The notes under the pieces are model-generated. The model ran no database searches. It worked only from the letters and a program-made list of their open reading frames with translations, and was not told the DNA's origin. A program made the position numbers and the translations under genes. 64,000 bases of DNA. Source: Pseudolabrys sp. Lineage in GTDB: Bacteria; Pseudomonadota; Alphaproteobacteria; Rhizobiales; Xanthobacteraceae. Shown here one piece after another: positions 48,288 to 63,557 of the stretch. The DNA lies in the NCBI GenBank assembly GCA_030655215.1, contig JAURVZ010000084.1, positions 186,001 through 250,000 on the forward strand, written 5' to 3'. Position 1 is the stretch's first letter. The number at the start of each line of letters is the position of its first letter.

Positions 48288-48968
48288 TCAGCTGTTAAAC
48301 CCGTCGAATGACGCGAAAGTGTCCAAAGCGGCGCGTGGCGCACGCCAGCCATTGATGGGCGCATCCGGATCTTCATAGCCGATGGCCATGCCGGAATAGA
48401 TCATCAGCTCGTCGGGGAGATCGAGGAAGGACCGCACGGTCTTGTGGAATGACACCCAGGCCTGTTGCGGACAGGTGTGCAGCCCATGGCCGCGGGCCAG
48501 CAAGGCGACGGTTTGCAGATAGCCGCCAATGTCGGCCCACTGCGCTTCGCCATGCGATCTGTCGCGGGCAAAGAACAAGGCTGCCGGTGCGCCGAAGAAG
48601 TCATAGTTGCGGGCATATTGCCGGTAACGCGCGGCCTTGTCCTCGCGCGGCACGTCGATCGACTGGTACAGCAGCTCACCGACGGTGAAGGCGCGCTCGC
48701 GATAGGGCTCGGCCATCGGGTGCGGATAGATCTGGTATTCGACGCCCTCGCCTTTCGGTAATTCGGTCGCCATGCGCGGCGCCAGCAATGCCTTCAAGGC
48801 GTCGAGGCGTTTGCCGGCAATGGCATAAACCCGCCACGGCTGAAGATTGCCGGCTGATGGCGCGCGCGCCGCCCGCTCGACAATATCGCGCACCGTTCGC
48901 TCCGCGACGGGCTTCGGCAAAAACGCCCGGCACGAATAGCGCGAGGCAACGGCATCGAAAATGTCCAT
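48288..48968 (-). CDS. Nitroreductase family protein
   Basis: 'RYSCRAFLPKPVAERTVRDIVERAARAPSAGNLQPWRVYAIAG' FMN-binding nitroreductase motif. Confidence 0.92.
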   Translation of the reverse strand: MDIFDAVASRYSCRAFLPKPVAERTVRDIVERAARAPSAGNLQPWRVYAIAGKRLDALKALLAPRMATELPKGEGVEYQIYPHPMAEPYRERAFTVGELLYQSIDVPREDKAARYRQYARNYDFFGAPAALFFARDRSHGEAQWADIGGYLQTVALLARGHGLHTCPQQAWVSFHKTVRSFLDLPDELMIYSGMAIGYEDPDAPINGWRAPRAALDTFASFDGFNS

Positions 48969-49030
48969 GATAGTCTCCGCGACAATTTGCTATAATGGCG
49001 CGGAACGCAGCGGACGCAAGACTATCATGG
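48965..49030. repeat. Perfect 12-bp inverted repeat embracing both start codons of a divergent gene pair
   Basis: CCATGATAGTCT (48965-48976) and AGACTATCATGG (49019-49030); contains ATG of nitroreductase (48968, -) and of the 49027 ORF (+); TATAAT between. Confidence 0.8.
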
Positions 49031-49686
49031 CTCAACCCAGCGAGCACGGTCGCATCATCGCGGCGGCAGCCAAAGCGGCCCTCGCGCCGATCGGATGTGT
49101 GCGCAAAGGCCAGTCGCGCACCTGGCGAGCCGACCATCGCTATTGGGTCATTGACGTCGAATTCCAACCAAGCGGCTGGCAAAAGGGAAGCTACCTCAAT
49201 ATTTCTGTCGCGTGGCTTTGGAATGTGACCCACGGTTACGACTTTGCATATCGCGCGGGATCTTTCATTCCTTTCGAGACCGCAGAACAATTTACCCCGC
49301 CGATAAGAGAACTGGCCGCGATCGCCGCGACGGAAGTCTTGAAAGTCAGAGAACAATTCGGATCATTTTCGGACATTTTGGACTACATCAAAGCTGACAA
49401 CAGACGTGCACCCTGGCCCGGCTTCAATGCTGCTATCGTTTGCGGACTCGCTGGCGACATTGTCTCCGCTCGCCAATATTTTCATGAGGTTGAAGCATGG
49501 GATACCGATAAGTCCCCTTGGCGCGCGCGAGCGAAAATAGACGCGATTAAGCTTGAAGCGCTGCTCGATCGTCCGGAGCGTTTTCGAGACGCTGTTGCTG
49601 AGTGCATCGCCCGCCGCCGCCAACTCATGGGCCTGCCGCCCGACCCACACTGCTTTGATGAACTGGATTCCAAAGCAACGCCATGA
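49027..49686 (+). CDS. Hypothetical protein
   Basis: 219-aa ORF from MAQPSEHGR; no recognised domain. Confidence 0.6.
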   Translation: MAQPSEHGRIIAAAAKAALAPIGCVRKGQSRTWRADHRYWVIDVEFQPSGWQKGSYLNISVAWLWNVTHGYDFAYRAGSFIPFETAEQFTPPIRELAAIAATEVLKVREQFGSFSDILDYIKADNRRAPWPGFNAAIVCGLAGDIVSARQYFHEVEAWDTDKSPWRARAKIDAIKLEALLDRPERFRDAVAECIARRRQLMGLPPDPHCFDELDSKATP

Positions 49687-49746
49687 CCGGGCCAATATTC
49701 CTTCGAACAGGATGTCCCTTGCTTGTTGCTCCCTGCGCCCGCTCAA

Positions 49747-50154
49747 TCACTTCCTCCCTAATATCCGCGCCGCCTTCTCCAGACTCCGCCCGCCGAAATA
49801 AGCGGTGAGCACGATCATCGCCCATTGCGCGACGTCGCCGGTGAGCGGATCGGTCGTGCCGAGCCCGAGAACTTTGTCGATGACCACAACTTTCCACGCG
49901 TAAATGACAAAGGCGCCGGCAAACAGAGGACGCGGCAGCGCCGTGTACCAGCGCCCCTGCTCGGCAATGACCAGTTGCGTTGCTAATTCGCGCTCACGCT
50001 GCTGCAGCCCAAGTTCGCGCGCCGCCAGATCGGCGGCAATCTTCTCCGATGTATTCTCCGCCGTGAGCTTCGCCCGATAGCCATCGACGGCGGCCTTGGC
50101 GAACGGCCCGCCGAGCAGACTGCCGAGCCAGCCGAGAAGTGTGCTCAGCATCAT
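49747..50154 (-). CDS. Putative phage holin-like membrane protein
   Basis: Short protein with charged coiled-coil and TM segments 'LFAGAFVIYAWKVVVIDKVLGLG' and 'WAMIVLTAYFGGRSLEKAARIL', 3-TM holin-like; next to endolysin remnant. Confidence 0.6.
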   Translation of the reverse strand: MMLSTLLGWLGSLLGGPFAKAAVDGYRAKLTAENTSEKIAADLAARELGLQQRERELATQLVIAEQGRWYTALPRPLFAGAFVIYAWKVVVIDKVLGLGTTDPLTGDVAQWAMIVLTAYFGGRSLEKAARILGRK

Positions 50155-50381: not shown

Positions 50382-51008
50382 TAACGAACTCCTGTTGAAA
50401 ATGATTTCATGATGCGCGCGACAAGGCCGGCCCATCCGGCCGGCGCGGCCTTCGCCACCGGCGCCGCATCCGGCGCGCGCTTGAGCGGTTGCTCCGCAGC
50501 GAGCTTCAGCGAAAAGCTCTTCACCTCGGCGACGCGTCGGCCCCAGCCTTTGCCGAACACGTCCCAGGTCTTCAGCCGCTGCAGGAAGCGCAAGCGCTCA
50601 TCGCAAATCGCCGTCACCAGCGCACGCGCATCGGCCGCCTTCGCCGCGATGACGACGCGCATTCACCACACTGCTGTCGTCCGGCAGCTTGAGGCAGCGC
50701 CGCAGCACTTTGCCGCTGCGGCCGATGCCGGAATTCACGCCGTAGTCGAACACGGCATAATCGACACCGGCCGGCAGATCATCGCAGCGCTGCGCGTCCC
50801 AATATTTGGTGCGGTAAATGCGGTTGGCCTCACCCAGCGACATCGCTTTGACGTCGGCGGCTGTCCCGCCCGCCTTCACATATTTCCGGTAATCGTGGAT
50901 GGTGATGCCGAAATTGGTCGGCCCGCCCGGATCGGATGGATGATTGGTATAGCCGCCTTCGTGCTGCAACAGGCGCGCGAGCGCCGCTGAGAAGTTCTCA
51001 GCAGCCAT
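50381..51008 (-). pseudogene. GH108-type N-acetylmuramidase endolysin (with PG-binding C-terminus), frameshifted
   Basis: N-part 'LARLLQHEGGYTNHPSDPGGPTNFGITIHDYRKYV...YAVFDYGVNSGIGRSGKVLRRCLKLPDDSSVVN' and C-part in another frame 'RVVIAAKAADARALVTAICDERLRFLQRLKTWDVFGKGWGRRVAEV'; join at ~50656-50662. Confidence 0.8.
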
Positions 51009-51130
51009 TGGTGGCCTCTTTTGTATGTTTAAATTCCGGGACAACACGCCGAACTTTGCGGCTCCCACTTCCTGGGGGGCACCGCCTGAGTTATGCTATA
51101 AGCAAGACAACCGCGGATAAGCTGACCTTC

Positions 51131-51907
51131 ATGCGCCCAACAAAGCTCGTCATGCTCCACTGCCCTAAGGCGGCGGGTACGTCGGTTTCGACGTATCTCG
51201 GGGCGTTCTTTAAGAACAAGACGGACCTGCCAGCGGCATCGTTCCGGCTATCGGACGAGAGCAAGTGGCCGAACTACAAAGCCTTCGATTTCATTCATGG
51301 GCACTGCGGTTACGATCTTGTTAGGTATCTCGGCGCGGAATTCCAATGCGTTACAAGCTTTAGACATCCGGTTGCCCGCCTTGCATCGCTGTACAATTTC
51401 TGGCGGAACGACACGATTGAGAGCCAGGTTGCGGAGGTCGTTAGCGAGAAAAACCCGCCACCACACAAGATCGCGCAGCATCTTGCTCACGAGCTCTCAT
51501 TTTCGGAATGGGTGGCATCTGACGAAAACGCCGTAACGATGTATACGCGCAACGCTCACACGCGGCAGATATTGCGAAACTGGTGGACGCCGAAGGACCT
51601 GTCGTGGTTCGATATGGAAATCGTTAAACACCGCATCCGCAAAATGCCTTGGTTCTATATCGCCGAGTTGCAGGCTGACTCGATGAGGTTGCTCGATGTG
51701 GCGTTCGGAAAGGCGATCACCAAACCGGACCTCGGACGAGAAAACGTCACGACCTACGCAAGAAAGCCGCAGACTTCGCCGACAGCGAAAGACGCCGAAG
51801 TGATCGCTCGCTACAATGCAGCAGACATTTTGATTTATAACTACGCACTAAAGAGACAGAAGAGCGCCGCCGCCTTAATGTCGCGGTCGTCTCTAGCGGC
51901 AGGATAA
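51131..51907 (+). CDS. Sulfotransferase family 2-like protein
   Basis: 'LHCPKAAGTSVSTYLGAFF' (5'-PSB-like loop) and 'FRHPVARLASLYNFWRN' (3'-PB-like). Confidence 0.82.
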   Translation: MRPTKLVMLHCPKAAGTSVSTYLGAFFKNKTDLPAASFRLSDESKWPNYKAFDFIHGHCGYDLVRYLGAEFQCVTSFRHPVARLASLYNFWRNDTIESQVAEVVSEKNPPPHKIAQHLAHELSFSEWVASDENAVTMYTRNAHTRQILRNWWTPKDLSWFDMEIVKHRIRKMPWFYIAELQADSMRLLDVAFGKAITKPDLGRENVTTYARKPQTSPTAKDAEVIARYNAADILIYNYALKRQKSAAALMSRSSLAAG

Positions 51908-51912
51908 TTCCT

Positions 51913-52839
51913 ATGAAACCCGCACCTCTCGTTGCAAATGGCATTCCGAAATCTGGTACGTATTTTTTGGACGCCATCGTCAACGCGACAGGCCTGTGGC
52001 AATCAACGGGGCTTCATCTTGCTGCCCCGCATACCGTTGTCAGAAGTTCGGACGGCTCCACCTCCACCGACAGCCGGCCCGCAACCTCAGTCATCCCCGC
52101 GCTGGCCGATGGTACTTACGCCAATGCCCATATGATTTGGAGCTCTGAGATCGAGGCGGCAATATTGTCGCGTAACGCGAAGCATGTTCTCATCATTAGA
52201 GACCCGCGCGACACCATCGTTTCCATGATGCGATGGCAGACGTACAATCCAAAGTTCGTGACCAATGCAGCCGAGCAGGAAGCGCAAAGCGTCCTTCGGT
52301 TAGGGTTCGCTGATGATAGAGCGCGCGCCTTGCACTTCATTCACCGTATGCGCTGGAATGACTATGCCCAATACGCACCTTGGCTGAAATCTTCGGCTTG
52401 CCACGTCGTCCGCTTCGAAGAACTTTATAGCGAATTGACTGACGACAAGAGCGAGCTGACGTCGGTGAAGGGGCTTCTGAACTATCTCAGCGTCGGCGGC
52501 ATCGATTCCGCTTCTTTGCGGGCGACTCTGCACCAAGGCGTCACATCGTCTGGCATAAAGAACAAGATTGGCGCTTGGCGCGAACTGTTCGGAGAGGAAC
52601 ACATGAGTTTGCTGGACTATCCTGCTCTCAACGAATCGATGGCAGCCTTGGGCTACACTGCGCACAGTCACCCGGCGCTTACCAAAGTCGAGTTTTACGA
52701 TGATGCCAACGGCAAAAAAATGCGCCGTGAATATTGGAACCCGCAGCATCCCGAATGCCCGTCGCGCTATAGAGTGCATGTCGATCAGAGTGTTTACGTG
52801 CGCGCGGAGCCGGCAGAGGCTGCTGTATCTAACCCGTGA
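51913..52839 (+). CDS. Sulfotransferase domain protein
   Basis: 'NGIPKSGTYFLDAIVNATGLW' (5'-PSB loop) and 'LIIRDPRDTIVSMMRW' (3'-PB). Confidence 0.82.
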   Translation: MKPAPLVANGIPKSGTYFLDAIVNATGLWQSTGLHLAAPHTVVRSSDGSTSTDSRPATSVIPALADGTYANAHMIWSSEIEAAILSRNAKHVLIIRDPRDTIVSMMRWQTYNPKFVTNAAEQEAQSVLRLGFADDRARALHFIHRMRWNDYAQYAPWLKSSACHVVRFEELYSELTDDKSELTSVKGLLNYLSVGGIDSASLRATLHQGVTSSGIKNKIGAWRELFGEEHMSLLDYPALNESMAALGYTAHSHPALTKVEFYDDANGKKMRREYWNPQHPECPSRYRVHVDQSVYVRAEPAEAAVSNP

Positions 52840-52909
52840 AAAGACATTGGCAGTTTGCTGTGCCGTTAGTATTGCAACCTGCAACAACACGGACCTCGCG
52901 AAGCCGGTC

Positions 52910-54025
52910 TCACGAGTAATCACCTCCGGTCGCCACCAACCCAGACGCGCTGCCAGGCAAGTAGGACGCGCCGCCACCAGCGGTGAAGATCACGCCGTTT
53001 CGAACCGCCGAATATCGGACGCCGGTAGCCGCGCCGGAATACGTAATGCCGCTCGCCTGCGCATATGAAAGACGGTCGGCGAGCGCGAAGGCGCCGCTGA
53101 ATGCTGGCGCCCCCGTGAGAGTCACAGTGCGGCCCGAGCCGCCGGTAACAATGCTGCCATGCGTCAACGCCTGGAGATGGTAGGACGCGCTGCCGGAGAT
53201 GGTATAATCGATCCCGTTCGCGACAATCTTTCCGTCGGTCGTGGCAAGCATTTGACCGCCGGCAATGGCGCCAAAGTCCATTGCCCCAGATACCGTGATA
53301 ACGCCGCCAGTGAGCGCGTTTATTCCCGCACCGGACGACGTTGCGATCTTGAGCCCGGCAATGGAAAGATTGCCGTAATTCGAGACAGAAATAGCGACGC
53401 CGGCTGTGGAGAGCAGCACGCTCGAAGGGGACAACGTGTTGCCACGAAGAGTGACGGTCCCGCGACCGACCCATGGACCGGCGACGGTGACCGACCCGGT
53501 GTAATTGCCGCTCTCCACCTGAATCGTAACGTCATATCCATTGAGATCGAGGGTAGCGACGACGTTGATCGCCTTCTGAATTGTCAGGAACGCGCCGCCC
53601 GACGAATTCGCCAAACCGTTGTTGCTGTCAGACCCATCGGTACGCACGTAGTATGTGCGGTTTGCCGTCAGAACTTCACGGCATGGCTTGATCACAGCCA
53701 CCCAGGCACTGCCGTTCCAGCTCAACAGCGCGCTCTCGTCGATGACATAGGCAAGCCAGCCGATGCGCGGCGCACTGAATTGCCAGGCGCCGTCCTGCCA
53801 CGCCGCAATGGCGTTGACATGGCTGGCCCATGCACCTGTCGCGCCGGTCTTGACGATCCAGCGTTGCCCTTCGGACGGCGAACCGGGCGGCGCGGTCAGA
53901 TCGCGGTCAAGCACTGCGAGTTGCACCAGAGTGTCGAGAATGCGCAAGGCTTCGTTGTGGGTGACGTGCTTCTGCGCCTGGCTGCCTTCAATGCAAGGCA
54001 GCGCCAGATTGGCGGTGTCGGTCAT
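52910..54025 (-). CDS. DUF2793 domain protein with beta-helix C-terminus (tail fibre/spike-like)
   Basis: 'NLALPCIEGSQAQKHVTHNEALRILDTLVQLAVLDRDLTAPPGSPSEGQRWIV...WAGAWQF'-type DUF2793 region, then 'YYVRTDGSDSNNGLANSSGGAFLTIQKAINV' pectin-lyase-like start. Confidence 0.85.
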   Translation of the reverse strand: MTDTANLALPCIEGSQAQKHVTHNEALRILDTLVQLAVLDRDLTAPPGSPSEGQRWIVKTGATGAWASHVNAIAAWQDGAWQFSAPRIGWLAYVIDESALLSWNGSAWVAVIKPCREVLTANRTYYVRTDGSDSNNGLANSSGGAFLTIQKAINVVATLDLNGYDVTIQVESGNYTGSVTVAGPWVGRGTVTLRGNTLSPSSVLLSTAGVAISVSNYGNLSIAGLKIATSSGAGINALTGGVITVSGAMDFGAIAGGQMLATTDGKIVANGIDYTISGSASYHLQALTHGSIVTGGSGRTVTLTGAPAFSGAFALADRLSYAQASGITYSGAATGVRYSAVRNGVIFTAGGGASYLPGSASGLVATGGDYS

Positions 54026-54039
54026 GTTTTGCGTCTCTG

Positions 54040-57000
54040 TTATTGAATTGCGAGCGTTATGTCGGCGGGGAAGCCGCGCCCGATCGTTGCCGAGAGTTGC
54101 ACCACGCGCAGGTGCAGGGTCGCTTGCGGCGCGCCGAAGTCGGTCAGTTCATGCGCGGCCGTATAGAGGACTGACGGTGTCGTTGCTGTCAGCGTGCGCA
54201 GCGCCGTCGCGCCAAGCATGACGTCAATCTCGTATGTCTCGCTGTCCTCGCCGAGCGGCACTTCGCCGGTCCAGCTGTCGCCGTCGGCGCGCGTGCGGCG
54301 GATCCAGCCGATGCTGACGCCACTGCCATCGCGCACGGCTTTGACATGGACTGGCGACAAGGGCCGCAGCGCCGTCGCGCGCGGTGTCGCGACGAGCGAT
54401 AGCGCTGATGCATCGCCGGTGTCGCGGCCGGCCGCGACCACGCGCAATTGCAATGGCCGCTCCAGCGCGCCGATGCCGCTCGCCACTGTCACGATCTGCG
54501 GATCGAGCAGCACAAACGGCGCGCCAGCGGCCAGCATTGGCGTCATCGCCCACTCGCTGCCGAATTGCCCGCGCAACAAGCGAGAGAGTTTGTACTCCCG
54601 CTCGCCCACTAATTCGGCATTGGCGAACTGGATCAATTCCCAATGGCCATCGGCATTACGCAAGGCCGCAACATTGGCGCCGCCGAGCACCGCATTGTCC
54701 GATGCCGATGCTAACGCGCCGCCGAAAAGCCGGACGCGGCATTCAGCCTTCTGCCAGCGCGCCGTCGGCCCGGCCGGCAGCACATCGAGCGTCTCGCCCA
54801 TTGTTGCGCGCGCCTGCGCCAGCGCCACGCGGCTGAAGCTCGCGCCATCGTGTGACGCCCAAACAGCCATCGCGCCCGGCCATGGCTCGGCCGAAACCGC
54901 CATGCGCATCAGCGGCACCGGCTGCTCCGCCGACAAAGCCGGCAGATCGAGCACAAGCGCATGCGCCGGCCCAAGTGCGGGCGGCAGCACGGTCGTGCGT
55001 TGCCGCGGCGCCTGCAGGCTGACATTGAACACTTCCGGATCGATCGAGCGCGCCCGCACCGCGCGCGCCTCGGCGTCGGTAATTTCCTCGATCTCGATCA
55101 GCCGCCGCCGTCCATTGATCGTCACGCCGGCGACATCGCCCGGCGTCAGTCCCAGCAAACTCGGCGGCAGCGCGAACACTGCGCTCTCTCGCCCGGCCCA
55201 CAGATCCTGCAGCCAGATCTCTGTGCGCCGCTCGACACTCACATCGTCACTGACAATGGCGAGGTCGGCATGCGCGCGCCGCGCCGACAATCCGACCAGC
55301 CGGCGCGAGGTCGCCGTCGCGCGCTGATAGTCGGCCGCCATTTCGGTGAAGCCAATCGACACCGCACGCGGCAGGTCGCTCTCCTGAGCGCGCACCAGCC
55401 GCGCCGGCGGCACATCCTCCGGCAAGACCAGATCGTCTTCCGTCAACTCGATCACCGGCGCGCCGCCGCGCTGGCGAAAGCGCAACACGCCGTCCTGCTC
55501 AACCGCGTCGAACTGAAACGCCAGCGCCAAAGGATCGAGCATGGCGCGCGGCGCCATCGGCCGGTCGACGACATAGCCATCCGGTCCCTCGCCGAGTTCA
55601 TCGGTCTCGGCATCGGTGACGCCATTGTCCTCAAGCAGCGTCGACACCAGCCCATCGAGCGTCGCATTGCCGAGGCGTCCGGTCAGCCAGTGCCCGCTCT
55701 GCCAATTGGCGGCGTCGCTCCACACATCGCCCGCGGCGGGGAACACCGGATAAGGCCGCGCATCCCAGGTCCACAGATGAATGGCGTCGGCCGTCACCAT
55801 GCGGCCGCCATAGACGCTCGACACCGGGTTGAGCGCGGCATCGCCGAACGCCGGATCGAAAGCCCCTAACACCGCTTCAAGAAAGCGGCGCTGGATCAAG
55901 TCATCGCGCTTGCCACTGGAGAAATATGGCAGCGCTGCTTCCGACGACTTGGCATCGGGAAATGTGCTCGGCTGGTTGGCGCCTTTGTCGACCGCGGGAC
56001 AGCCGAGTTCGGTCAGCCAGATCGGCTTGCTCTGCGGCACCCAGCCGGTCGGGCTGCCAAGCTCAACGCCACCGACACGTTCATAGTGCGGGCGCGACCA
56101 GAAATTCCAGATGTCCTTCTGCCGGTAGATCCACGGCTTGCCGAGGCCATCGGTAATGGCGCTGCGCGTTTGCGCCAGACGCGCGGCATCGTTGGCATAG
56201 TACCAGTCATAGGCCTCGCCGCTGTTGAGGTGCCCGGCGATGTAGTCGCGGCGATAAGGGCTATCGCTGAGCGCGCGGTCAAGCGCATTGGCGTCGTCGC
56301 GCCAGTCCGACAAAGGCGCGTAGTAGTCGATGCCGACACAGCCGATCGCCGATGACGCCCATAGCGGATCGAGCGGAAAGCGCACCTCGCTGCCGATCAC
56401 ATGCGAGCCATATTCGGTCCAGTCGGCGGCATAGGTGACAAGTGTATCGCCGCCAACAATGGCCTTCACATCCGCCGCCAGGGTCACCAGCGCATTCACC
56501 GCCGGATAGACACCGGAGGCCGAACGCACGCGCGTCAGCGCGCGCATCTCCGAGCCAATCAGAATAGCATCAACGCCGCCGGCGCTCTCGGCCAGCGCGG
56601 CATAGTGCAGAATCATCTTGCGGTAATTCCATGCGTCGGCGCCCCCGGCGAAGAACGTATTCACCTGGCTCGCGGCGGCAGCCGTGCCATCCACCGTGCC
56701 GGCGCGTTCCGGCGCCGGATCGCAGTTAATGCGCCCGCGCCATGGATAGGCCGGTTGCGACGCCGCGCCGCTATGCGGATCGCTGAGTGCATTGCCCGGC
56801 GCAATGTCCATCATCACGAACGGATAGAGCGTTACCTTCAGCCCGCGGGCTTTCAATTGCGCAATCAGATTCACCACGCTCCAGTCGGACGGCGTGCCCC
56901 CATAGGCTGGCCGCCCGCCGACACTCGACACCTGATAGGCGGCATCGCGCGTCACACCCGCAACGGACCACGTCGCGCCATGGGTTGTCTTGATAGAACT

Positions 57001-57906
57001 GTCGATGCCGGGCCGCACGCGGCACTGCCCGCAGCGCAAATCGCTGCCGAACCAACTCACCACAATGGCGACGCGCTCGAGGTTCGGCGCCACGGCCTGC
57101 AACTCGTCGAGCGAGGCAATCACGTCCGAGGCAGCAAACGTCACATGCCGGTTCTCAGGGCCCGATATGCCAGGTCCCAAAACTTGCACCACAGTCGACG
57201 GCTCATAGCCGAACTCGGTCGAACCCGGGATCAGCGTCACCGCGCGCACCATTTTCTCAAGCTGGCCGACCGCCCGCACCACCTCGAACGACAATTGCGG
57301 AATGCGGTTGCCGAAATCGGCGAGCGGCAGGCGCTCGATGACGACATAAGCCAGCCCGCGATAGGCCGGCGCGGCGCCTTCCTTGGCGACGATCAAGGGG
57401 TCTGGCGTCTGCGTCTCGTCGCCGGTGTAGACGCGCATGGTCACGCCGCTGAGATCGAGCGGTTTGCCATCGGCCCAGACACGCCGCACCGCACCGATCG
57501 GCCCTTCGCACAAGCCGAGCGCGAGATTGCCGTAATATGCGTAGGTCGTCGTCGTGGTGACTGTCGTGGTCGATCCGCCGCCGCCGGTGCTCTTGCCGCC
57601 GCCGGATTGCTCGGTCGAGGTGCTGGTGCTGACCACCTCTTGCAGATTGGTCGCCCAGATCACCTGCCCCGCCAGACGCGCGCGGCCATAGAGACGCGGG
57701 ATCGCCGCGCCATCCGTCGAGGCCATGACTTCGAGATCGGCGAGGCGCGGCCCTTCGACCGTGCGCTCGCGCCGCGAACCGAACAGAGCCTGGTCGATGG
57801 CGTTGCCGGCGACGGCGCCAACAACGCGACCGATTATCGCCCCCGCCGGCCCGAGCAATGACTTGCCGGCGACGCCGCCTGCCGCTGAAAGAAGGAGTGC
57901 TGCCAT
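54040..57906 (-). CDS. GTA TIM-barrel-like domain / baseplate megatron-type tail protein (RcGTA g15-like)
   Basis: 1288 aa; 'LLGPAGAIIGRVVGAVAGNAIDQALFG', 'GSEMRALTRVRSASGVYPAVNALVTLAADVKAIVGGDTLVTYAADWTEYG', 'IWLTELGCPAVDKGANQPSTFPDAKSSEAALPYFSSGKRDD'. Confidence 0.95.
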   Translation of the reverse strand: MAALLLSAAGGVAGKSLLGPAGAIIGRVVGAVAGNAIDQALFGSRRERTVEGPRLADLEVMASTDGAAIPRLYGRARLAGQVIWATNLQEVVSTSTSTEQSGGGKSTGGGGSTTTVTTTTTYAYYGNLALGLCEGPIGAVRRVWADGKPLDLSGVTMRVYTGDETQTPDPLIVAKEGAAPAYRGLAYVVIERLPLADFGNRIPQLSFEVVRAVGQLEKMVRAVTLIPGSTEFGYEPSTVVQVLGPGISGPENRHVTFAASDVIASLDELQAVAPNLERVAIVVSWFGSDLRCGQCRVRPGIDSSIKTTHGATWSVAGVTRDAAYQVSSVGGRPAYGGTPSDWSVVNLIAQLKARGLKVTLYPFVMMDIAPGNALSDPHSGAASQPAYPWRGRINCDPAPERAGTVDGTAAAASQVNTFFAGGADAWNYRKMILHYAALAESAGGVDAILIGSEMRALTRVRSASGVYPAVNALVTLAADVKAIVGGDTLVTYAADWTEYGSHVIGSEVRFPLDPLWASSAIGCVGIDYYAPLSDWRDDANALDRALSDSPYRRDYIAGHLNSGEAYDWYYANDAARLAQTRSAITDGLGKPWIYRQKDIWNFWSRPHYERVGGVELGSPTGWVPQSKPIWLTELGCPAVDKGANQPSTFPDAKSSEAALPYFSSGKRDDLIQRRFLEAVLGAFDPAFGDAALNPVSSVYGGRMVTADAIHLWTWDARPYPVFPAAGDVWSDAANWQSGHWLTGRLGNATLDGLVSTLLEDNGVTDAETDELGEGPDGYVVDRPMAPRAMLDPLALAFQFDAVEQDGVLRFRQRGGAPVIELTEDDLVLPEDVPPARLVRAQESDLPRAVSIGFTEMAADYQRATATSRRLVGLSARRAHADLAIVSDDVSVERRTEIWLQDLWAGRESAVFALPPSLLGLTPGDVAGVTINGRRRLIEIEEITDAEARAVRARSIDPEVFNVSLQAPRQRTTVLPPALGPAHALVLDLPALSAEQPVPLMRMAVSAEPWPGAMAVWASHDGASFSRVALAQARATMGETLDVLPAGPTARWQKAECRVRLFGGALASASDNAVLGGANVAALRNADGHWELIQFANAELVGEREYKLSRLLRGQFGSEWAMTPMLAAGAPFVLLDPQIVTVASGIGALERPLQLRVVAAGRDTGDASALSLVATPRATALRPLSPVHVKAVRDGSGVSIGWIRRTRADGDSWTGEVPLGEDSETYEIDVMLGATALRTLTATTPSVLYTAAHELTDFGAPQATLHLRVVQLSATIGRGFPADITLAIQ

Positions 57907-58343
57907 TAGTCACCAACTCCGGGAAACCGGAACGCATAAGCAATGTGCCGCCGCCACCAAGGCGCCAGCGCCACTTCGGCAACCGAAGCGCCGTCATGCG
58001 CGTGCACGATCTTGTCAGGCGCCGTGATAATGGCGGCATGCTTGGCCGGCAGATTGCTGCGCCAGCGAAACAGCAACACGTCGCCTTCAGAGAATGCGTT
58101 GCGGTCGATGAGTATCAAGTGTCGCGCTGCGGCTTCGGCCAGCGACTCGCTGCCGGCCGCTTCCGCCCAGTCCGGCGCATAGGCTGGCGCTTGCTCCGGC
58201 TCGTCGCCGATCACGGCGCGCCACACACCGCGCACCAGCCCGAGACAATCGCAGCCGATACCTTTCAGTGATGCCTGATGCCGATAGGGCGTGCCGATCC
58301 AGCCGCGCGCTTCCGCGACGATGAGAGAACGAGTGATAGTCAT
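57906..58343 (-). CDS. NlpC/P60 family tail peptidase (RcGTA g14-like)
   Basis: 'GWIGTPYRHQASLKGIGCDCLGLVRGVW', 'HAAIITAPDKIVHAHDG'. Confidence 0.93.
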   Translation of the reverse strand: MTITRSLIVAEARGWIGTPYRHQASLKGIGCDCLGLVRGVWRAVIGDEPEQAPAYAPDWAEAAGSESLAEAAARHLILIDRNAFSEGDVLLFRWRSNLPAKHAAIITAPDKIVHAHDGASVAEVALAPWWRRHIAYAFRFPGVGD

Positions 58344-58352
58344 GGGGACCTC

Positions 58353-58408
58353 GTGTCCCGGACGCAGCGCAGCGTTCTTCACGATGCGAGATCCGGGACC
58401 CCGGTTAC
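58353..58408. repeat. Palindromic intergenic repeat, copy 1
   Basis: GTGTCCCGGACGCAGCGCAGCGTTCTTCACGATGCGAGATCCGGGACCCCGGTTACT; GTCCCGGA/TCCGGGAC stem; shares AGATCCGGGACCCCGGTTACT-type end with copy 2. Confidence 0.8.
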
Positions 58409-59295
58409 TTGTTTAAACTATTTCCGTCATTGCCCGGCTCGCCCTGAACCGGATAGCGCACGACAAAGTCATTGCCGGGAATGTGCGGGAAGCCGCGAAA
58501 ATTCACGATGTTGTTGAAACGGTCGCGGCACGTCGTGAAGCGCTTGTCGCAACCGGCTGTCACAGTGAATGTATCGCCGGGCGCAATCGCCTGCGGCATC
58601 GCCTGCCACAGATCGAGCGTCACATCGGTCGCTTTGCGATGCAGCTTCACCTCAATCGCCAAACCGTTGTTCGCGCCGCTGGTGAAAGTAAGCTTGCCGG
58701 CCGTGAACCAGCCATCGCCGAACGCGCCTAGGCCACTGGCGCGGAACGCCGATGTTGCAGTCAACGCGACCACTGTGCCGATGCCGCGAAACGCAGACAA
58801 CATTAGATTGACCTTGCAGCGGCTATCACCGCAATCGGCCGAGCACGTCGCCGTATAAAGCCGCCCTGTGTCTTGCGTCAGCTTCTCGCTCAATCCCCGC
58901 ATCTCGGCGGTAAACACCGCGCCATCGCGGCGCACTTCGCCAAGCGTGCCTTTGGCCATCAACACGCGCAGAGACGGCTCGCTCCAGTCGACCAGCCACA
59001 GCTCGACGCCCGCAGCGTCGTAGCGGCCGGCCGCGAGATCATCCTCGTTCAACGTGTCATCATTGAGCGCGCCGCTGAGCTCCGACGTGTCGGCCGCGAG
59101 CCCATGCTTCTGCGCCACCTCACTGCCGCTGAGACCGGTGCCGGCGCGGCAGGTCACCGCGCCGAGCACGACATCCTCGTCGTGATCGGTGAAGCCTTGC
59201 GTCACATCATCCTGGCGCACGATCAGCCAGCAGCGGCACAGAGTCGTCACGCCGGAGTCCATCTTCTCCTGCAAAGCGGGCGGGATGTTTCTCAT
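58405..59295 (-). CDS. DUF2163 domain protein (RcGTA g13-like)
   Basis: 'CRCWLIVRQDDVTQGFTDHDEDV', C-terminal 'GCDKRFTTCRDRFNNIVNFRGFPHIPGND'. Confidence 0.93.
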   Translation of the reverse strand: MRNIPPALQEKMDSGVTTLCRCWLIVRQDDVTQGFTDHDEDVVLGAVTCRAGTGLSGSEVAQKHGLAADTSELSGALNDDTLNEDDLAAGRYDAAGVELWLVDWSEPSLRVLMAKGTLGEVRRDGAVFTAEMRGLSEKLTQDTGRLYTATCSADCGDSRCKVNLMLSAFRGIGTVVALTATSAFRASGLGAFGDGWFTAGKLTFTSGANNGLAIEVKLHRKATDVTLDLWQAMPQAIAPGDTFTVTAGCDKRFTTCRDRFNNIVNFRGFPHIPGNDFVVRYPVQGEPGNDGNSLNK

Positions 59296-59933
59296 GGCTT
59301 GATCTCCACCACGGGAATTTTCGGAATGGCGCCAGCGGCAAAGGCGGACAGATCGACCTCGAGATAATCGGTGTCGAAGCGCACCGGCACGTCGAACAAA
59401 AACCCGGCGGTGACGTCGATGCCAAGGCCGGGGATATGAGCCGGCAGGAACGTCACGATGCCCGTCGTCGAGTCGACGCTGAAGTGCATGCCGCGCGTCA
59501 TCTCGACACCGGCCACCGCGATGCGCACGCTCAACGGCACCGGCTTTTCAATCGGTCGCCGGTACGGCGCAAACTCGTCGCCATAAGTCTTGCGCAACGC
59601 AAACGTTGCCGTCACGCCATCGCCATAGCCGATGATCTGATCCAACGGCGTCACCGCCGCATCCGGCGCCGCGGAAGAATGATCGAGCCGGTCGCGCCAG
59701 CGAAAGCCATACAGTCGCCCGCGCCGCTCCTCGAAGAAGGCAATCGCCTGCGACAACGCCTGATGCGTCTTGACGCCATAACCGGCGTCGTAACGCCGTC
59801 GCGAATGCGCCCAGCGCGCATTGCGCTCCTCGCGGCCGGAGCCGAGCGCAACCACATCGGTACGCCGCTGCGGCCCGCCGGCGCTTTTCAGCGCGATGTC
59901 GAGCGGAAACAGGATTTCATGAAATGCGGTCAT
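59292..59933 (-). CDS. DUF2460 domain tail protein (RcGTA g12-like)
   Basis: 'FHEILFPLDIALKSAGGPQRRTDVVALGSGREERNARWAHSRRRYDAGYGVK'. Confidence 0.94.
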   Translation of the reverse strand: MTAFHEILFPLDIALKSAGGPQRRTDVVALGSGREERNARWAHSRRRYDAGYGVKTHQALSQAIAFFEERRGRLYGFRWRDRLDHSSAAPDAAVTPLDQIIGYGDGVTATFALRKTYGDEFAPYRRPIEKPVPLSVRIAVAGVEMTRGMHFSVDSTTGIVTFLPAHIPGLGIDVTAGFLFDVPVRFDTDYLEVDLSAFAAGAIPKIPVVEIKP

Positions 59934-60518: not shown

Positions 60519-60699
60519 CGGGAAACCTCTTCATCAAATCCGCCAACCCGCCGCGATCGAGCGGCACGCTCCGCCCACCGCGCACCGCTTCAATTGCGTA
60601 GCTGAGCTCGCGCGGCGTCATGCGCCAGAACTGCTCCGGCGGCAGCTTCAACACGCCGAGGCCGAAGCCGATGGCCTCCGGCCAAGGAAACGGCTTCAC
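60508..60699 (-). CDS. Phage tail assembly chaperone (RcGTA g10.1-like)
   Basis: 63 aa 'FPWPEAIGFGLGVLKLPPEQFWRMTPRELSYAIEAV'. Confidence 0.9.
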   Translation of the reverse strand: MKPFPWPEAIGFGLGVLKLPPEQFWRMTPRELSYAIEAVRGGRSVPLDRGGLADLMKRFPDER

Positions 60700-61010
60700 G
60701 CCGCGTCCCCAAATGTCGCTGCGATCAAGGCCGCGGCAATGCGCACATAGCCCTGCGCGCCGCCATCGACCGCGAGCCGTGCGACTTCGTCGTCACTCAC
60801 CGCTTCTCCGGCGCCACGCAACCCGGCGCCGATGATGCGTGTCAGGTCGCGCGCCTTCAGCCGCCCCGAGGCAAAGCGCTCGGTCAGCGCCACCAAGTCG
60901 TCAGCGCCAAACGCATCTTCCAGTTCGGCCAAAGCGCCGAGCGTCAGCACCAAGGTGCGCTTGACGCCGCCGAGCTCGGCCTCGATCTCACCGCGATATT
61001 TGTTGGCCAT
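60696..61010 (-). CDS. Gene transfer agent family protein (RcGTA g10-like)
   Basis: 'LTLGALAELEDAFGADDLVALTERFASGRLKARDLTRIIGAGLRGAG'. Confidence 0.9.
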   Translation of the reverse strand: MANKYRGEIEAELGGVKRTLVLTLGALAELEDAFGADDLVALTERFASGRLKARDLTRIIGAGLRGAGEAVSDDEVARLAVDGGAQGYVRIAAALIAATFGDAA

Positions 61011-61013
61011 CGT

Positions 61014-61421
61014 TTACGCCGCCGCGAATGTCTGCTCGCCAGCCGACTCGAGCGCGACGTCATAGGTCACCTCGCCATTGTGCTCACCGGCGAATTCCAG
61101 ATTGGTGATCTGGAATTTGCCCTGCACCGTGCCGAAGTCCGGAATGACGATCTGGTAATTCTTCACCGCGCCGTCGAAGAAGGTCTGCCGCATCAGCGCA
61201 TCGGTCGCTGCATCCTTGAACAGGCCGCGGCCGGAGATCGAGGCGCGCTTGACGCCGGCGCCATCGAGCAGTTCTCGCCAGCGATTGGCGCTCTCGGCAT
61301 GCGTGATGTCGACAGTCTCGGCGTTGAACGACAGCCGGCGCGTGCGCAGGCCGGCCACCGTTGTGTAGCCTGCGCCGTCGGCGATCTTGATCAGCAGGTC
61401 CTTACCTTTTTGAGCGGTCAT
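61014..61421 (-). CDS. Phage major tail protein, TP901-1 family (RcGTA g9-like)
   Basis: 'TAQKGKDLLIKIADGAGYTTVAGLRTRRLSFNAETVDITHAESANRWRELLDGAGVKRASISGRGLFKD'; SD-like GGAGA before ATG at 61421. Confidence 0.93.
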   Translation of the reverse strand: MTAQKGKDLLIKIADGAGYTTVAGLRTRRLSFNAETVDITHAESANRWRELLDGAGVKRASISGRGLFKDAATDALMRQTFFDGAVKNYQIVIPDFGTVQGKFQITNLEFAGEHNGEVTYDVALESAGEQTFAAA

Positions 61422-61436
61422 GATGTTCTCCAAAAA

Positions 61437-61847
61437 TTAAAGCGGTTCGGTCACGGCGCGGAAGCGAACCAGCGCGTGATAGGTGCGGCCGTCGGCTTCG
61501 CGCCGCACATCGGCGACGGCGAAGCGAAGATTGATGAGGCTGTGCCCGCTCAAGGTCAGCGGCGCATCGTCGAGCGCTTGCAGCAGCGCGCCGGCAATGA
61601 CATGGGCTTCCTTGTGGCCGCCCTGCCGCGACCAGGCATGCAAGGTCAGCTGATGCTCAGCGCCGGATTCAGTGCCGGTCGAGAAATCGGCGATGCGCGC
61701 TTCGCCAAGCGTCACGTAAGGAAAGGCCGCCTGCTTCGGCGGCTCGTCATAGATCTTCGGGCCGCCGAGCACAGAGGTGAGCGTGCTGTTGGCGGCCAAC
61801 GCGCTGTGCACGGCGGCACGCAGCGCGACGGCGGATGCAATCGGCAT
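61437..61847 (-). CDS. DUF3168 tail completion/terminator protein (RcGTA g8-like)
   Basis: 'LRAAVHSALAANSTLTSVLGGPKIYDEPPKQAAFPYVTLGE'. Confidence 0.92.
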   Translation of the reverse strand: MPIASAVALRAAVHSALAANSTLTSVLGGPKIYDEPPKQAAFPYVTLGEARIADFSTGTESGAEHQLTLHAWSRQGGHKEAHVIAGALLQALDDAPLTLSGHSLINLRFAVADVRREADGRTYHALVRFRAVTEPL

Positions 61848-61848
61848 G

Positions 61849-62169
61849 TTAATCCTCCCGCTGTTCGGCGTCGATGTCGAGAAAGCGCCGGTCAGCGCTC
61901 TCGCGCACGGCGAGCACGCGATAGGTGCGGATGCCGTCGATGAAGCGATGCCGGGTCGAGACGTCGTTGCGTTTGCGAATGGTGATGGTGGCGCGAAGCG
62001 CCGCTCCGAGACGATGAGCCTCGCTCTCGCTGCGCGCCGACAAAGGCGTCACCTTGGCCCACAGCACGGTGACGACATCATAGAGCCGGGTGACGCCGCC
62101 CTGCCCGTCGTCGCTTTCGCTGGCCGCTTCCAGCACAACACGGCGGTTGAGTTGCCCGGGCGCGGTCAT
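61849..62169 (-). CDS. Head-tail adaptor (RcGTA g7-like)
   Basis: 'PGQLNRRVVLEAASESDDGQGGVTRLYDVVTVLWAKVTPLSARSESEAHRLGA'; start placed at MTAPGQLNRR. Confidence 0.9.
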   Translation of the reverse strand: MTAPGQLNRRVVLEAASESDDGQGGVTRLYDVVTVLWAKVTPLSARSESEAHRLGAALRATITIRKRNDVSTRHRFIDGIRTYRVLAVRESADRRFLDIDAEQRED

Positions 62170-62732
62170 AGCGACAGCATCCGGTAAGGCGCGATCAACG
62201 TCGCGACGGTCGATGGCAGGATCGTCACAGCGCCCAGCGCCGCCAGTCCGCGGTTCTCGTACCAATGCGCGACCAGCAAGCGCAGCGCGTGCCGCAACGG
62301 CTCCGGCACGTCGGTGGCGGCGTCGCCGTAACCGCAGATAACATCCAGTTCGATACCGGCGACGATCCGCCCCGGCGCCGGCAAAGCCCAGGGCGCGAAA
62401 GCTAGGGCCGAACCGCCGCTGTCGACAACGAAGGACTCGGCGTCGACCGCATGCGCGACGCCGCCATCATCATAGACCCGCGTTGCCGACAGCTCCCGCA
62501 ACGGCGCCGGCGCGACCTTAAGCCGCCCGTCTTCCGGCCAGGCGTCCAACGTGATGCGCCAGGTTTGTGTGATCAGCGCGCGGCGCGTCTGCGCCTCGAC
62601 GTGAATGCGCGAAGCGGCTATCAACGCGCCGATGACATCGTCGTCATCATTATGCTCGACGCGGAGAAACGCTTTTGCCTCGGCGAGCGACAGCGGCTCG
62701 ACCGCAGGCGCGGTGAGAAGTAGAGAAGACAT
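62166..62732 (-). CDS. Head-tail connector protein (RcGTA g6-like)
   Basis: 'PLSLAEAKAFLRVEHNDDDDVIGALIAASRIHVEAQTRRALITQTWRI' gp6-like. Confidence 0.9.
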   Translation of the reverse strand: MSSLLLTAPAVEPLSLAEAKAFLRVEHNDDDDVIGALIAASRIHVEAQTRRALITQTWRITLDAWPEDGRLKVAPAPLRELSATRVYDDGGVAHAVDAESFVVDSGGSALAFAPWALPAPGRIVAGIELDVICGYGDAATDVPEPLRHALRLLVAHWYENRGLAALGAVTILPSTVATLIAPYRMLSL

Positions 62733-62810: not shown

Positions 62811-63557
62811 ATGAAGAAATTTGGTTTCGCCGTTTTTCTCTCGCTCACAGCCGCCCCCGCGCTCGCCATCACCGGCAATGCGCCGCCGGCCACCGGATGG
62901 GCGGCGCGTCCGATCGTCATGGTCATTGATGGCCGCGGCAATCTCTGCACCGGCACGGCGCTGGCGCCGGACCTCGTGCTCACCGGCGCGCATTGCGTGA
63001 CGCTGCCGGTCGCTTACAAAGTGCGCACCTATCAGAACGGCGCCACCATCGATGCGCGCCAGGTCATGCGCCATCCCGGCTTCAGCATGGCGAGCTATGC
63101 CGCCAGTCGCGCCACCGCCGACATTGCGCTCATCAAGTTGGCGCAGCCTCTGCCCGACATCATTGTGCCGGCGGCGCTCGCAGCTTCGCGCCGCGTTGCC
63201 GTCGGCGAAACGCTGACCATTGCCGGCTTCGGCGTCACGCGAAACAAAACCGATGATGGCCTGGGCATTCCGCGCGCCGCCACGCTTGTTGTCACCGGCA
63301 AGCCCGGCAGTCTGCAGGTGCGGCTGCAGGATCCGGCAACGCAGAACAAACGCGCCGGTCTCGGCGGCTGCGTCGGCGATTCAGGCGGCCCGGCTTTCGA
63401 TGGCGAAGGCCCGCTGGTCATCGGCGTCATCAGCTGGTCGACGGCGCCGAATGACGAAGCCGGCTGCGGCGGGCTGACGGGCGTGACGCCGCTGTTGAAT
63501 TACCGGCAGTGGATTGTGGATACCGCGAAAAAACTCAACTCACCAATCGGAAACTGA
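62811..63557 (+). CDS. Secreted trypsin-like (S1) serine peptidase
   Basis: Signal peptide MKKFGFAVFLSLTAAPALA; 'LTGAHCV' (His), 'TADIALIKL' (Asp), 'GDSGGPAF' (Ser). Confidence 0.92.
   Translation: MKKFGFAVFLSLTAAPALAITGNAPPATGWAARPIVMVIDGRGNLCTGTALAPDLVLTGAHCVTLPVAYKVRTYQNGATIDARQVMRHPGFSMASYAASRATADIALIKLAQPLPDIIVPAALAASRRVAVGETLTIAGFGVTRNKTDDGLGIPRAATLVVTGKPGSLQVRLQDPATQNKRAGLGGCVGDSGGPAFDGEGPLVIGVISWSTAPNDEAGCGGLTGVTPLLNYRQWIVDTAKKLNSPIGN

Follow-up and report, generated by a model that had tools for sequence, protein, structure and literature searches.

Predicted sulfotransferase genes in a hypervariable slot beside the tail-fibre gene of an RcGTA-like gene transfer agent in Pseudolabrys

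The common view of gene transfer agents (GTAs) is of domesticated, conserved machines, and a locus in Pseudolabrys sp. raises the question of what two sulfotransferase-like genes are doing inside one. The window, which is the whole stretch of 64,000 nucleotides that we analyzed, contains two plus-strand ORFs, ST1 (51131–51907, 258 aa) and ST2 (51913–52839, 308 aa), separated by 5 bp. Both lie antisense to their minus-strand neighbors, the gene for a DUF2793 tail fibre on one side and that for a GH108 endolysin on the other. A sequence-only reading of this DNA had described the two ORFs, their antisense placement and the motifs PKAAGTS and RHPVARLASLY (ST1) and PKSGT and RDPRDTIVSM (ST2), all of which we find as described.

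The assignment of the two proteins to sulfotransferase families follows different routes. ST2 matches Sulfotransfer_1 above the Pfam cut-off (PF00685, 31.1 bits against 22, E=2e-7), contains PKSGT and RDPRDTIVSM as its 5'-PSB and 3'-PB motifs, and has a relative of 59–60% identity in genome G012. ST1 matches Sulfotransfer_2 (PF03567) weakly, at 17.3 bits, below the cut-off of 22, and its support comes through an intermediate, its relative L167 in genome G576 (E=2.6e-13), which itself passes the Sulfotransfer_2 cut-off (28.8 bits versus 22). Sequence searches of the PDB gave no significant match for either protein. The nearest named solved match to ST1, the remote heparan sulfate 2-O-sulfotransferase (3f5f) of the Sulfotransfer_2 family, is not significant (E=0.33), and shares with it, in matching order, PAPS-loop-like, HGH and RxPxxRxxSxY segments, the FIHGH motif of ST1 lying in a stretch, FIHGHCGY...RHPVARLASLYNFWR, that aligns with YHGHVSY...RDPIERLVSYYYFLR. 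The histidines of the HGH motif are catalytic in heparan sulfate 2-O-sulfotransferase. ST2 resembles the Sulfotransfer_1 family, represented by StaL (5x2b), in its two motifs and its Pfam match. AlphaFold models of ST1 and ST2, built from two-row alignments, were unusable (pLDDT 34 and 39). We conclude that, by sequence, both are predicted sulfotransferases, in agreement with the first reading.

ST1 and ST2 also differ in composition from the genes around them. Their GC contents are 0.542 and 0.551, against 0.62–0.66 in most flanking GTA genes; their codon-adaptation indices are 0.48–0.49, against 0.54–0.67 in the same set, and their GC3 is 0.63–0.67, against 0.72–0.78 in most of those genes. 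The low GC noted in the first reading is confirmed, and the composition is foreign. A TATGCTATAAG-like promoter had also been proposed ahead of ST1; this detail is unsupported, because a consensus scan of 51009–51130 did not pick it up and returned no promoter match. A single, weak terminator-like site lies at 52848–52865.

The flanking genes on the minus strand identify the carrier. On one side of the pair, the DUF2793 tail-fibre gene (52910–54025; PF10983, E=8e-34) is adjoined by g15 (54040–57906; GTA TIM-barrel/Rcc01698-like tail protein; PF13547, E=1e-133, PF13550 and PF23666), g14 (57906–58382; NlpC/P60 peptidase, PF00877), g13 (58405–59295; baseplate hub protein, PF09931 and PF09356), g12 (59292–59933; DUF2460, PF09343) and g10 to g6 (60696–62732; tail tube, tail completion, head completion and connector; PF11836, PF06199, PF11367, PF05521 and PF05135). 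On the other side lie the endolysin (50598–51008; PF05838, E=7e-29), whose ATG start at 51008 was inferred by alignment to congeners, and a probable GTA holin (49747–50154; PF11351, weak at E=0.048; phrog_3427 holin, E=2e-4), which is conserved in congeners. The connector-to-g15 stretch has the gene order and families of RcGTA, including the GTA-specific GTA_TIM, Rcc01698_C and GTA-gp10, and capsid, prohead protease, portal and terminase genes follow past the window end. The g15 protein occurs in 16 congeners at 63–85% identity over its full or most of its length, with fragments in two more, and the nitroreductase, orf47174 and histidine kinase genes downstream of the lysis genes are likewise the neighbors in the congener loci that extend there. 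Known here from its genes, the cluster is thus best described as an RcGTA-like GTA that is vertically inherited at a fixed chromosomal site. An ordinary prophage was ruled out by genus-wide synteny in Pseudolabrys together with the GTA gene order. Since a vertically inherited GTA is the carrier, the superinfection exclusion that had been suggested for the two genes is better recast as possible control of GTA or phage adsorption.

ST1 and ST2 are private to the source genome at this position, none of the other genomes examined having them there; in the closest relatives by the g15 tree, 3–167 bp separate the DUF2793 gene from the endolysin, and the flanks are syntenic. Foreign composition, antisense insertion and congener sites without the two genes together give the moron-like layout proposed by the sequence-only reading. 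Single-sequence searches found no direct relatives of either protein in phage records, IMG/VR or GTDB contigs (the last queried with ST1), and an alignment-based search of IMG/VR returned one partial match to ST1 (35%) and no match to ST2. The source genome is fragmented and 80% complete, so that an assembly artefact or chimeric contig might be suspected. However, the contig around the slot is 269 kb long, synteny is conserved to either side, the ORFs are intact, and G124, G085 and G019 are examples of near-complete or few-contig genomes in which the slot is also filled. We reject this explanation as extremely improbable.

To place the pair in a wider context, we surveyed the slot, running from the endolysin start to the DUF2793 stop (51009–52909 in the window), in 71 distinct GTA or GTA-like loci that contain both genes and were chosen by similarity to the window's endolysin or DUF2793 protein. 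More than 600 bp separates the two genes in 36 of the 71, compared with 0–4 loci at each of seven other junctions, which were scored in fewer loci (16–70). About 15 of the 36 occupied slots hold sense tail or alpha/beta-hydrolase-like genes that are apparently normal in those lineages, and 18 hold recognizable glycan-type enzymes, mostly antisense. The latter comprise O-acyltransferases (Acyl_transf_3; L010, L023, L126, L127, L128 and L144), sulfotransferases (two each in the window and L019, others in L020, L021, L124 and L153, that of L020 being assigned through close similarity to L019), a sulfatase (L019 and L020), GXM-type or Methyltransf_24 methyltransferases (L129, L131 and L138, the last assigned through similarity to the other two), FkbM with PMT_2/DUF7024 (L142), TIGR04325 (L018), Methyltransf_23 (L134), GSCFA with a glycosyltransferase (L021) and DegT (L124). 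Together with one locus bearing a radical SAM/SPASM protein (L155) and two whose antisense ORFs match nothing (L032 and L111), they make up 21 loci, 18 of which have antisense cargo genes. The counting of methyltransferases as glycan enzymes is partly inferred from family, and certain of them, like the radical SAM protein, may act on something other than glycans. Comparable antisense genes lie downstream of DUF2793 in a Nitrobacter (L039), an Afipia (L030, a fragment) and BMS3Bbin10 (L033). No toxin-antitoxin, restriction or transposase genes were recognized in the slot cargo examined. The other GTA junctions had few large insertions, in which inspection by eye, with profile searches of a minority, revealed no glycan enzyme. 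Looking for the same arrangement in other genomes, as had been proposed, thus shows ST1 and ST2 to be private, yet the slot repeatedly gains glycan-modifying genes, and this strengthens the earlier interpretation.

Across 23 genomes of the genus, five of the 21 Sulfotransfer_1 matches fall inside the slot, where its fraction of the genome predicts about 0.007 (binomial P ~8e-14, computed after the pattern was noticed and from matches that are not fully independent, because two genomes have one cargo in common). Mapped onto a quick tree of g15, cargo presence changes at least 12 times and cargo type, in classes assigned by the analyst, at least 17 times. Cargo common to several loci is under purifying selection (dN/dS 0.04–0.23). 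In the loci surveyed, the DUF2793–endolysin interval is a hypervariable cargo slot enriched in glycan enzymes.

Several other features of these clusters were recorded. Other genera (L121, L130, L135, L139, L143 and L153) repeatedly have, in the DUF2793–endolysin interval ahead of the endolysin, an alpha/beta-hydrolase-like gene of ~190 aa that lies in the sense direction and has a product starting with 'AIRGLAGG'. In Aquamicrobium (L054, 6487–9006), a DUF2793 gene that has no adjoining g15 match is directly preceded, on the opposite strand, by an acyltransferase-like ORF, which suggests that the link between fibre and glycan enzyme may reach further. The GTA head cluster contains antisense host-type genes (window 62811–63557 and, past the window on contig C93, L172 812–6633), namely a trypsin-like protease, GDSL lipase, Sel1, Crp-type regulator and methyltransferase. 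The trypsin-like gene occupies the same place in 8/8 congeners examined and the others occur in subsets; these genes are long-standing passengers, in contrast to the fast-changing DUF2793–endolysin slot. A second variable spot, between holin and nitroreductase (48961–49746), has overlapping low-GC ORFs on both strands that are present in some congeners (L008, L009 and L011) and missing in others; the plus-strand ORF has no Pfam match. The g15–DUF2793 interval has a 1.17-kb insertion in L006 (3915–4982), L008 and L108, with a related antisense ORF of ~355 aa in L006 and L008 that has no Pfam or NCBIfam match. Finally, in two congeners, G019 (contig C1) and G023, the syntenic GTA is accompanied by several further loci that are GTA-like or bear an endolysin (L109, L113, L114, L116, L118 and L119).

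The slot adjoins the gene predicted to bind the receptor, as had been pointed out, and this gene is itself variable. The N-terminal part of the window's DUF2793 protein is 93% identical to that of congener locus L006, whereas the C-terminal part reaches no more than 56% identity with any surveyed locus, its best match being in another genus; for this reason the tip of the tail fibre looks swapped too. DUF2793 has been designated the GTA tail fibre (PMC10883770), and in R. capsulatus the RcGTA particle attaches to capsular polysaccharide through its tail fibre and head spike, a capsule-less strain being unable to receive (PMC10218006). The closest relative of ST1 within the genus (G004, 36–37% identity) directly precedes genes of the polysaccharide-export type for an ABC-2 permease and an ABC ATPase, in a neighborhood that also has SIS-domain isomerase and methyltransferase genes; around the ST2 relative in G012 we identified no polysaccharide cluster. 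The export-gene context, the swapped tip and the capsule binding of RcGTA together suggest that cargo and fibre may form a receptor-related module. The surface-glycan role raised by the first reading gains from this export context and from the recurrence of glycan enzymes in the slot elsewhere.

These observations bear on where the enzymes would act. ST1 and ST2 might modify the GTA particle (fibre, spike or capsid) or a small metabolite instead of the cell surface, as the genes sit within a structural cluster and the ST2 family includes members with small-molecule or peptide substrates, the nearest PDB matches of ST2 including, below significance, the glycopeptide sulfotransferase StaL. The polysaccharide-export genes beside the ST1 relative argue against such a target, as do the acyltransferases and other slot enzymes, which by family are typical of surface polysaccharide modification, and we consider it improbable. 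It is a more serious possibility, though still a doubtful one, that the slot is a neutral landing site: the boundary between fibre and lysis genes would tolerate insertions, glycan genes are very mobile, and the surface would change for reasons unrelated to the GTA, such as phage predation or niche, with recombination between conserved GTA flanks shuffling the cassettes. The conserved flanks would make such recombination possible, the GTA cluster also houses other antisense genes, and the cargo, antisense to the GTA in 18 of the 21 loci, is therefore probably expressed independently of it. Yet a neutral site does not readily account for cargo in which other mobile classes (toxin-antitoxin, restriction, transposase) went unrecognized, or for its position next to a receptor-binding gene with a likewise variable tip.

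We favor as probable the explanation that the RcGTA-like GTA, itself vertically inherited, has recently acquired ST1 and ST2 in its hypervariable slot as a cassette for sulfating surface glycans. The two enzymes would most likely use PAPS to sulfate a sugar of an exported capsule or O-antigen polysaccharide, which would alter the polysaccharide presented to the GTA's own tail fibre and to phages; in other genomes, O-acyltransferases, methyltransferases, sulfatase, glycosyltransferases and other sulfotransferases in the slot may serve the same end. Weighing against this explanation, the 80%-complete source assembly gives just a borderline match to APS kinase, the enzyme for PAPS supply, which is clear in most congeners. 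An extension of this explanation, which we hold tentatively and think unlikely, is a GTA compatibility module, in which fibre tip and adjacent glycan cassette are exchanged together, so that a lineage-specific polysaccharide mark is recognized or avoided by the lineage's own GTA. If true, DNA exchange would be steered to kin, or producers would be spared re-adsorption.

Two known systems come closest. R. capsulatus has its tail-fibre and lysis genes at loci separate from the head-tail cluster, and temperate phages carry seroconversion cassettes or morons, such as the gtr and oac genes. The present cluster is like RcGTA in its connector-to-g15 order and families, its DUF2793 tail fibre (Rcc00171 in R. 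capsulatus), its GH108 endolysin and its GTA-type holin families (PMC10883770, PMC10218006), but here the head-tail cluster is immediately followed by the fibre and lysis genes, and their junction has variable, antisense, glycan-type cargo. Like seroconversion morons, exemplified by the temperate phage Kapi1 (PMC8787464), the slot would place horizontally acquired surface-glycan modifying genes aboard a phage-like element. Unlike them, it belongs to a vertically inherited GTA, its repertoire goes beyond acyltransferases to sulfotransferases, sulfatase and methyltransferases, and the phage records searched contain no closely related genes. The best reading of the slot contents is thus of exchangeable surface-glycan modification cassettes, resembling seroconversion morons, within a GTA.

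In the open-access literature searched we found no description of a fast-turnover, function-biased cargo slot beside a GTA receptor-binding gene. Its position next to a fibre that probably recognizes recipients hints that DNA-exchange partners are tuned here. The slot contents provide a simple genomic readout across the family, including the cultured Afipia and Nitrobacter relatives, and if the cargo alters the GTA receptor, the matching of GTA donors and recipients in nature would become testable.
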